This document shows, piece after piece, positions 35,971 to 38,764 of a DNA stretch of 64,000 bases; the first letter of the stretch is position 1, and every line of letters begins with the position of its first letter. This stretch comes from Gracilibacillus orientalis (GTDB taxonomy: Bacteria; Bacillota; Bacilli; Bacillales; Amphibacillaceae): the NCBI RefSeq assembly GCF_900114645.1, contig NZ_FOTR01000006.1, forward strand, positions 62,001-126,000. Direction: 5' to 3'. The notes beneath the pieces were generated by a model. The model worked only from the letters and a program-made list of their open reading frames with translations. It did no database searches and was not told the origin of the DNA. A program made the position numbers and the translations under genes.

Positions 35971-36750
35971 TTACTCAAACATTTCTTTATTCATTTCTTT
36001 AATTGCTGCTTTTTCTAATCGTGACACTTGCGCTTGTGAAATACCAATTTCTTCAGCAACTTCCATTTGTGTTTTACCTTGGAAAAAGCGTTTATTAAGT
36101 ATCATTTTTTCACGCTTGTTTAACCGATGCATTCCTTCTTTTATCGATAAATGATTAAGCCAGTCATTATCTTTCACATTATCATCACTTACTTGATCCA
36201 TTACATAAATGGGGTCTCCACCATCATTAAAAATGGGTTCAAATAAAGAAACAGGGTCTTGAATCGCATCAAGAGCAAAAATTACATCTGTAACCGGTAC
36301 ATCTAATTCTTCTGAAATTTCCATAGGAGAAGGATCCTTTGACGTTTTGTTTAATAATTTCTCTCTTGCATGCAGCGCTTTATAGGCAATATCTCGTAAT
36401 GATCTAGATACTCTTATCGGATTATTATCACGCAAATAACGTCTGATTTCACCGATAATCATTGGGACAGCATACGTGGAGAATTTTACATTCTGACTTA
36501 AGTCAAAATTATCAATTGATTTTAATAAACCGATACAACCGACTTGAAATAAATCATCGCCGTACTCTCCTCGATTATGAAATCGTTGAATAACACTTAA
36601 AACTAATCTTAAATTACCATTAACTAATTTTTCCCGTGCAGATTGATCCCCGTTCTGCATAGCCCGAAATAAAATTCGCATTTCATCATTCTTTAATACT
36701 GGTAAGGTTGCTGTATCTACCCCACAAATTTCTACTTTATGCCTTGTCAT
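35971..36750 (-). CDS. sigG: RNA polymerase sigma-G factor
   Basis: Late forespore sigma factor, 259 residues. N-terminal anti-sigma/adapter-contact region (VEICGVDTATLPVLKNDEM), region 2 (NLRLVLSVIQRF, then DDLFQVGCIGLLKSIDNFD and KFSTYAVPMIIGEIRRYLRD) and region 4 helix-turn-helix (TQMEVAEEIGISQAQVSRLEKAAI). It follows sigE with a 92-nt gap that holds a sigma-F/G-type promoter and a hairpin masking the ribosome-binding site. Activity in relatives is held back by SpoIIAB or CsfB until engulfment is complete. Confidence 0.97.
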   Translation of the reverse strand: MTRHKVEICGVDTATLPVLKNDEMRILFRAMQNGDQSAREKLVNGNLRLVLSVIQRFHNRGEYGDDLFQVGCIGLLKSIDNFDLSQNVKFSTYAVPMIIGEIRRYLRDNNPIRVSRSLRDIAYKALHAREKLLNKTSKDPSPMEISEELDVPVTDVIFALDAIQDPVSLFEPIFNDGGDPIYVMDQVSDDNVKDNDWLNHLSIKEGMHRLNKREKMILNKRFFQGKTQMEVAEEIGISQAQVSRLEKAAIKEMNKEMFE

Positions 36751-36757
36751 TTAATAC

Positions 36758-36806
36758 CCTCCCAATTGGAGATCCTTCTCAAAAATCAGTATCACCAATC
36801 GGGAGG
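36758..36806 (-). promoter_or_regulatory. sigG leader hairpin covering the ribosome-binding site
   Basis: On minus-strand RNA, CCTCCCGATTGG (36806 to 36795) pairs with CCAATTGGGAGG (36769 to 36758), 11 of 12 positions. The 3' arm contains GGGAGG, the sigG ribosome-binding site eight nt before the ATG. Transcripts that start downstream of 36,787 lack the 5' arm. Confidence 0.75.
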
Positions 36807-36815
36807 TTTTTATGC
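36787..36815 (-). promoter_or_regulatory. Sigma-F/sigma-G type promoter for sigG
   Basis: GCATA (36811-36815), a 14-nt spacer and GGTGATACTG (36787-36796) match the forespore consensus, with nine of ten positions of the -10 element. It implies autoregulation by sigma-G after priming by sigma-F. Confidence 0.75.
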
Positions 36816-36842
36816 ATCATCCATGATTTACCATTCGTTATT

Positions 36843-37565
36843 TCAGACCATTTTATTAAACTCTTTTTGTAGTCTTTTAATGATTTTTTTTTCAAGTCGT
36901 GAAATGTAGGATTGCGAGATACCCAGTAAATCTGCAACATCTTTTTGGGTCATTTCTTCTTCTTTATCAACCAAACCAAATCTTAATTCCATTATTTGTT
37001 TCTCCCTGCCATTTAATTGCTCTAAAGCTTTTCGTAATAATGATTTATCAACATTCTGTTCTAGATCTTTAAATGTCACATCTTCATCTGTTCCTAACAC
37101 ATCTGAGAGTAAAAGTTCATTGCCATCCCAATCCACATTTAATGGTTCATCAAAAGAAACTTCGGTTTTTATTTTGTTATTTTTTCGAAGATACATTAAT
37201 ATCTCATTTTCGATACATCTTGATGCATAGGTAGCTAGTTTAATTTTCTTTTCTGGATTAAAGGTATTGATAGCTTTAATTAAACCAATCGTACCGATGC
37301 TGATTAAATCCTCAATATTAATTCCTGTATTTTCGAATTTTCGGGCAATATAAACAACAAGACGTAAGTTTCTTTCGATTAACATTGCCCTAGCAGCTTT
37401 ATCACCTACTGGCAAGCGATGAATTAATTCATATTCCTCTTCTTTAGATAATGGTGGTGGTAATGCCTCGCTTCCCCCAATGTAGTAAATTTCATCTACT
37501 TTAAAGCCCATTTTCTTCAGAATTTTGTAAAAAATCATTTTATATTTTTGTTGTACGACTAGCAT
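36843..37565 (-). CDS. sigE: RNA polymerase sigma-E factor precursor
   Basis: Early mother-cell sigma factor, 240 residues from the ATG at 37565 ([16 protein letters not shown]) with AAGGAG upstream. The first roughly 28 residues are the amphipathic pro-sequence removed by SpoIIGA; the mature part begins around [13 protein letters not shown]. Region 2 ([32 protein letters not shown]) and region 4 ([24 protein letters not shown]) are intact. Follows spoIIGA directly, as in B. subtilis spoIIG. Confidence 0.97.
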
Positions 37566-37592
37566 TCCTTCCACTCCTTATCTTATATAATG

Positions 37593-38486
37593 TCACCCTG
37601 TCTGCTGAAATAATTTAGGGTGTAATAAACAATGGTAACTGTTATCAGCCACTAAATTCCCAAATTGAATACCTATTAAAACCTTCTTGTTTGTAAGTTG
37701 TACATTTTTCATATGTATTTCAAGTAAATCTGGTTTAAAGGCAATCATAAAATCATGTTGTCCACTCACTCCTTGAAAAGGTAATATTCGAAAAGTGGTA
37801 GAGGTAAAGTCATTCATTTCACCTTTCATCAAATTTTGAGCGGATGCTTGCAACTGCATCATATCTTCTTCGTCAAACCAATGCTTAAGAATAGTTTCAT
37901 CAACAATAATGACTGGGGTCTGGGTAAACGGATCGACTAAATGGTTTCCACTATCTAAATATCCTGTTGTTTCTACTTGTTTACCTTTCCACTCAATCGT
38001 GACGCTATAGTAAAACTCATGTTGGAACTGTTGCATTTTGTGCTTGTCCATTCGGTATTTTGTAAAGAACAATATAATAGGAAATCCTATTAAAACAAAT
38101 AAGCCATGTATTTGATCTGTAGCAAAACCTTGTCTAGATAAATAAGCTTCTGTTGAAAATAAAAAGTGAATGGCAAATAAGCCACCACCTATCGAAAATG
38201 TCATAAAATAAAATGAACAAAGCAACTTGAAATAGATAGCAACATTTTGAAAGCCAAAGGCAATCCAAATAATGATAAAAGAATGTGCAATTTTTAATAT
38301 CCATGAATCAATCGGAAATGTTGGAGCAATGAAAGATATCGGTACAATTAGAGATCCAAATAGACTGGCTATTACTAAGCGGTACCACTTCGTTATATGT
38401 TTAGTTACCGATTGTGTCAGTAATAGAATCATCCAGTCAATCATGAAATTAAGTAGCCATATGACTTCTACATAAACAACCACCAT
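37593..38486 (-). CDS. spoIIGA: Sigma-E processing peptidase SpoIIGA
   Basis: 297 residues. Five N-terminal membrane helices (about 5-145) precede a cytosolic aspartic-protease domain with catalytic D178 in GYLDSGN. It cleaves pro-sigma-E after SpoIIR signals from the forespore; the dimer supplies both active-site aspartates. First gene of the spoIIG operon, with a spoIIG-like promoter upstream. No bpr/bpf protease genes lie between it and ftsZ, unlike B. subtilis. Confidence 0.95.
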   Translation of the reverse strand: MVVVYVEVIWLLNFMIDWMILLLTQSVTKHITKWYRLVIASLFGSLIVPISFIAPTFPIDSWILKIAHSFIIIWIAFGFQNVAIYFKLLCSFYFMTFSIGGGLFAIHFLFSTEAYLSRQGFATDQIHGLFVLIGFPIILFFTKYRMDKHKMQQFQHEFYYSVTIEWKGKQVETTGYLDSGNHLVDPFTQTPVIIVDETILKHWFDEEDMMQLQASAQNLMKGEMNDFTSTTFRILPFQGVSGQHDFMIAFKPDLLEIHMKNVQLTNKKVLIGIQFGNLVADNSYHCLLHPKLFQQTG

Positions 38487-38532
38487 GTCCTTCCTTTCCA
38501 GCTAATATTAAATAAGCTTTACTTGTCTACTT

Positions 38533-38565
38533 AGTATAAAGAAAAGAATGAAAGAAGTCTGTCAC
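38533..38565 (-). promoter_or_regulatory. spoIIG promoter with unusually long spacer
   Basis: GTGACA (38560-38565) and TATACT (38533-38538) are 21 nt apart. In B. subtilis the Spo0A-activated spoIIG promoter also has an over-long spacer and the same TGACAGACTT context, which is visible here. Confidence 0.7.
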
Positions 38566-38764
38566 AGTTTGTATGCAAAAATCCTCTAGTTTTCAGAAAA
38601 AACCCATAAAAATGTTGAATAAAAAACTGTTCTATCTACATAGATGTAATGTAACCCTGCACTTTCCGATAGTTTCGGACTAGCGCGCTTCGTGAGACAC
38701 ATTCACAATATGTTTACTCCATAGTTTATGTTTTTTGTGCCTGATTTTTAATCTTTTTTCCATG

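Follow-up and report, generated by a model that had tools for sequence, protein, structure and literature searches.

The window analysed here, a stretch of 64,000 nt from Gracilibacillus orientalis, carries spoIIGA, sigE and sigG in this order downstream of ftsZ on the minus strand, and all four names are given by NCBIfam equivalogs above cut-off. The sigE gene (spoIIGB; 36843..37574, minus strand), an ORF matching the SigE equivalog, would be the source of any read-through RNA and lies directly upstream of sigG (spoIIIG; 35971..36750, minus strand), an ORF of 259 aa that starts with ATG at 36750 and matches the SigG equivalog. In the window, sigG sits right behind spoIIGA-sigE on the same strand, separated from sigE by a gap of 92 nt in which a terminator scan found no terminator-like site. 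Further upstream, between ftsZ and spoIIGA, a terminator-like hairpin (38801-38770, minus strand; 14 pairs followed by TTTT) may insulate the spoIIG operon from ftsZ transcription.

Between sigE and sigG lies the predicted sigG promoter, GCATA-N14-GGTGATACT (36815-36788, minus strand), which by its motif is of the sigma-F/G type. Its -35 element GCATA (36811..36815, minus strand) and its -10 element GGTGATACT (36788..36796, minus strand) are each identical in 17/17 Gracilibacillus leaders, and the 14-nt spacer between them, AAAACCTCCCGATT (36797..36810, minus strand), contains CCTCCC, an anti-Shine-Dalgarno (anti-SD) sequence. When the first G of the -10 element is taken as -16, the core ribosome-binding site (RBS) starts at +19 here, as it does in B. 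mojavensis (leader L135). Since the core RBS of B. subtilis has been placed at +19 to +23 (PMC5942855), and the +19 offset is the same here, the +1 of RNA made from this promoter (PsigG RNA) is put by homology at 36780 (minus strand), with the core RBS at +19 to +23 behind the predicted promoter. An earlier reading of the locus (hereafter the sequence-only reading) had likewise let this RNA start near 36,780 and lack the upstream arm of the hairpin described below.

RNA reading through from sigE can form a long hairpin between CCTCCCGATTGG (5' arm, 36806-36795) and CCAATTGGGAGG (3' arm, 36769-36758), both on the minus strand. All 12 positions pair in RNA, 11 as Watson-Crick pairs and one as G.U; the stem of the sequence-only reading is therefore real, but its count of 11 of 12 paired is one too low. 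As that reading had it, the 3' arm includes the SD sequence GGGAGG (36763-36758), and the predicted fold of read-through RNA (36842-36741) holds the SD within the stem at -28.4 kcal/mol (z -3.61), a value that none of 200 shuffles equalled. The 5' arm falls within the promoter spacer and the first two bases of the -10 element, which bears out the proposed overlap of arm and promoter; it thus lies upstream of the +1 and would be absent from RNA begun there. Opening five SD bases is predicted to cost 13.3 kcal/mol on read-through RNA versus 2.9 on PsigG RNA, and it is sequence upstream of the +1 that is predicted to bury the SD. With a sigG-like SD, the spacer forms a duplex of -14.7; at 39 other sigma-F/G-like sites in the same genome the median is -2.1 and the strongest duplex reaches -10.2. 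Many of these sites are probably not promoters, because backwards control patterns match about as often as the promoter patterns (11, 22 and 14 versus 10, 14 and 16 matches in this genome). An Rfam scan of 36000-38600 gave no match at the sigG leader, and its single match (37410-37467, plus strand) fell below the gathering score.

PsigG RNA would retain a smaller structure, in which UCUCC (36768..36772, minus strand; +9 to +13) pairs with the SD core GGAGG (36762-36758, minus strand), the latter being part of the long hairpin's 3' arm as well. The predicted fold of RNA from 36780 hides the core RBS in these five pairs at -5.1 kcal/mol, an energy no better than that of shuffles (76/200 as good), and leaves the SD core about 7% unpaired in the window. 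With this hairpin and an opening cost of 2.9, PsigG RNA is predicted to be damped rather than open, contrary to the earlier claim that forespore-made mRNA is open. The five pairs are kept in all 17 Gracilibacillus leaders (15/15 distinct rows). From the +1 to the SD (36780-36758, minus strand; GAGAAGGATCTCCAAT.GGGAGG) only two columns vary among 17 Gracilibacillus species, an invariance that, on the sequences, exceeds what the short hairpin alone would require; GAGA could instead pair with UCUC, which might leave the SD free. The SD of PsigG RNA is predicted to be mostly unpaired in 44 of the 130 leaders that belong neither to Gracilibacillus nor to the Paenibacillus-like group, indicating that the short hairpin is not universal, whereas it is predicted in all 15 Bacilli considered in PMC5942855. 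In leaders L029, L032, L033, L037, L047, L052, L104 and others, CACCAACTGGGAGGG or a similar sequence replaces the CTCC element, and the predicted unpaired probability of the PsigG SD is 0.80-0.94.

The idea that a leader hairpin blocks expression from read-through RNA is already known from B. subtilis and is not new. In the passages of Mearls 2018 (PMC5942855) on the leader, a large hairpin of 20+ pairs, credited there to Masuda 1988 and another paper, is proposed to block PspoIIG read-through and cannot form in PsigG RNA; this is the same model as that of the sequence-only reading, which had noted that a similar leader effect has been reported for B. subtilis sigG. The two cases share the gene, the sigE-sigG order, an RBS hidden on spoIIG read-through RNA and the inability of the hairpin to form in PsigG RNA, but they differ in size and layout, the predicted Gracilibacillus form being a continuous 12-bp stem in which GATTGG/CCAATT stands beside the SD part. 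A separate 5-bp RBS hairpin, tested by mutation, cuts B. subtilis sigG translation 2-4-fold (PMC5942855). It resembles the short hairpin described above in joining the core RBS to sequence just upstream through five pairs in PsigG RNA, but there the start is GTG and the energies, from another program, range from -6.0 to -8.9, whereas Gracilibacillus has an ATG start, UCUCC at +9 to +13 and, in ViennaRNA, -5.1 kcal/mol. According to the same paper, read-through is not required for B. subtilis sigG expression, and promoter spacing is tuned, with 14 nt in 14/15 Bacilli and short spacing tied to weak use by sigma-F (PMC5942855). The spacer measures 15 nt in 50/168 of the leaders collected here (e.g., L018-L023), in contrast to that predominance of 14 nt. 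The spoIIG operon is switched on by Spo0A early in sporulation (PMC11339384), a source whose passages on the topic make no mention of a sigG leader. A literature search covering titles and abstract openings, with most subscription journals outside its coverage, returned nothing further evidently on the hairpin or its conservation.

We consider it likely that Gracilibacillus has here its own version of the B. subtilis sigG leader, in which translation would depend on where transcription starts. RNA from spoIIGA-sigE would include the promoter spacer as RNA, and its CCUCCCGAUUGG would pair with CCAAUUGGGAGG and bury the SD; sigG should then be poorly translated from such RNA, both in the mother cell and at stages that precede the forespore programme. 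Where sigma-F or sigma-G begins the transcript at 36780, the 5' arm would be missing and only the weak UCUCC/GGAGG hairpin could form, so that translation would be damped, not stopped. This reading draws on the sequence, the predicted folds, their conservation and the promoter match, from which read-through, the +1 and the effects on translation in Gracilibacillus are inferred. Of the leader silencing proposed earlier, the core is retained, namely a hairpin that is possible only on RNA begun upstream of the sigG promoter and that is nested with that promoter, but its "open" forespore mRNA is replaced by a damped one.

For the comparison with relatives, 180 sigG loci were reduced to 175 distinct leaders by dropping 5 duplicates, and to 168 with a recognised promoter by dropping 7 of the 175; one of the 168 was kept despite a non-start codon, CTT, at the assumed start. 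The SD pairs mainly upstream of the +1 in 157/168 leaders (Gracilibacillus 17/17, others 127/130, Paenibacillus-like 13/21), and the median spacer-SD duplex energy is -11.4, -11.6 and -7.4 in these three groups, compared with control medians of -2.1 for the above 39 sites elsewhere in the genome and -2.4 for 21 gpr promoters. These gpr promoters were recognised under lax criteria in 21/30 loci (the 30 best of 60 matching genomes), with 1/21 duplexes at -9 or lower; the same lax approach to spoIIR yielded a promoter in 9/30 loci (the 30 best of 59 matching genomes) and was too poor for use. For distant members of the phylum, 40 of 71 matching genomes were taken and 10/40 regions, which were without a promoter or start, were dropped; among the 30 distinct leaders counted, from which the Paenibacillus-like L281 and L282 are excluded, the median duplex was -4.8, with 6/30 at -9 or lower. 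At most 5% of shuffles of a leader's own spacer match the SD as well in 15/17 Gracilibacillus, 83/130 other and 8/21 Paenibacillus-like leaders, and more than 5% do so in 2/17 Gracilibacillus and 47/130 other leaders.

In 17/17 Gracilibacillus leaders and 164/168 overall, opening the SD is predicted to cost more when the RNA is read-through than when it is PsigG RNA; the medians for the 82 genus representatives are 10.2 versus 2.9, with a difference of at least 2 kcal/mol in 75/82. If the mean probability that the SD core is unpaired is used instead, read-through RNA fails to be the more closed form in 36/168 leaders, including 8/17 from Gracilibacillus (the window not among them) and 18/21 Paenibacillus-like ones; the predicted contrast between the two RNAs is correct in direction but less clean by this measure. 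Terminator-like sites between sigE and sigG were found by the scan in 24/175 leaders, several of them overlapping the promoter's own T-run and possibly false. Loss of the hairpin where such a site separates the two genes was not seen, as 21/22 of those with a promoter keep the pairing. In the Paenibacillus-like group sigE is adjacent in 20/21, but the lock is weak, and 8/21 leaders do not show the pairing. The lock either also acts on low-level stray transcription or is partly inherited baggage.

With one leader per genus, the anti-SD motif YYTYY is present in 70/82 spacers, versus a mean of 36.1 and a maximum of 47 in shuffles; it is also present in 10/17 Gracilibacillus spacers, including that of the window. 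It occurs in 7/21 gpr spacers (shuffles 5.1, maximum 10), in 10/30 spacers of distant relatives (8.3, maximum 14) and in 1/21 Paenibacillus-like spacers (1.4); Paenibacillus-like and more distant relatives are mostly without the motif. The anti-SD can lie at any position between -12 and -3, counted with respect to the -10 element, which makes it unlikely to be a fixed promoter element. In a register set on the G columns alone, T stands opposite the SD's A in 65% of leaders, versus 31% in shuffles (maximum 45%), as counted over 80/82 leaders after 2 without a GGAGG core had been dropped. No association was detected between the first SD base and the base facing it (Fisher p 0.69 and 0.35).

In spacer swaps among the 82 genera, own combinations fitted better, at -16.64 versus -14.58 kcal/mol for swapped ones, a value reached in 0/5000 permutations, and they also did so within each of two family groups; these permutations take no account of the tree and thereby overstate certainty, and genus representatives are not independent of one another. 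A leader's own spacer beats the mean of foreign ones in 60/82 cases, and for the median leader 29% of foreign spacers fit better than its own. When whole hairpins were swapped among representatives of a single spacer length (39 and 37, after 5/44 and 1/38 with rarer lengths were dropped), the own combination was again better (0/5000 each), whereas excluding the SD core left a weaker signal (150/5000 and 2/5000 in the two groups, 0/5000 for all 82). Within Gracilibacillus, spacer swaps had no effect (2441/5000 as low). Over its 17 leaders, 92.2% of stem cells pair; four of the stem pairs are invariant, five show changes on one side only, three differ only by unpaired cells, and two-sided compensatory changes are absent. 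Several of the changes are C-to-T opposite G, which preserves the RNA pair. The check for covariation suggested in the sequence-only reading gives a mixed picture: between genera own spacers have the better fit, but within the genus no pair changes on both sides.

These data bear on other explanations of the pairing. It is rather improbable that the short 5-bp RBS hairpin is the sole structure of importance and that the long pairing just follows from a C-rich spacer retained for promoter function, e.g., weak use by sigma-F. Such an account would fit with the mutational tests in B. subtilis, which addressed the short hairpin, with the tuned promoter spacing of that species (PMC5942855), and with the invariance of its five pairs across the 17 Gracilibacillus leaders, but it is at odds with the floating position of the anti-SD (-12 to -3), the above-shuffle frequency of T opposite the SD's A, the better fit between genera of spacers to their own 3' arms than to foreign ones, the lack of such an excess in gpr spacers, the finding that 0/39 other sites in the genome are equally complementary, and the mostly unpaired PsigG SD in 44/130 leaders.

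The placing of two 12-bp arms either side of the -10 element and start region could also suggest an inverted repeat that works as DNA, as a regulator binding site at the sigG promoter. However, 20/180 Gracilibacillus cells are wobbles (12 U-G, 8 G-U) that keep the pairing in RNA and break the symmetry of the DNA, and the spacer sequence varies widely among genera, unlike a usual protein site, which makes this explanation very improbable. We give the smallest chance to a hairpin that terminates or pauses read-through transcription instead of blocking translation: the hairpin is strong and stands immediately before sigG, but 25 nt lie between its arms, no T-run follows the stem (GTATTAAATG), as the GC-rich stem plus T-run of an intrinsic terminator would have it, and the terminator scan found nothing there.

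The survey suggests that the lock acting on translation of read-through RNA occurs widely across Bacillaceae and allied families, a comparative case that was not found in the above search of titles and abstract openings. Beyond this, we see an even chance that the sigG spacer across these families is under double selection, as DNA for the distance between -35 and -10 elements and as RNA for a drifting anti-SD latch that co-evolves with the leader, with good translation only from the gene's own forespore promoter and with many Paenibacillus-like and more distant sporeformers having a weak latch or none. If true, start-site-gated translation would be a general means of insulating a gene from an upstream operon. 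The leader illustrates how a single short stretch can be promoter spacer and RNA lock at once. At sigG, the gene stands directly behind the early-activated spoIIG operon (PMC11339384), and misexpression of sigma-G is detrimental to B. subtilis cells during growth (PMC5942855). The lineage pattern, with the lock kept in Bacillaceae and not in many Paenibacillus-like species, also makes an old single-species prediction testable.

Two further observations concern individual relatives. In L155-L180 (Paenibacillus and kin), the leader appears highly conserved (GGAGATAATG...CATTAATGTTTCTCCTTGGGAGG), and GGAGA of the -10 element might pair with leader UCUCC on read-through RNA, freeing rather than hiding the SD. 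Relative G022, of the same family and listed as 99% complete, was left out of the leader set with only weak sigG matches (best E 3.7e-27); it has no gpr, spoIIR or sigG-grade match, suggesting that it may have lost sporulation.
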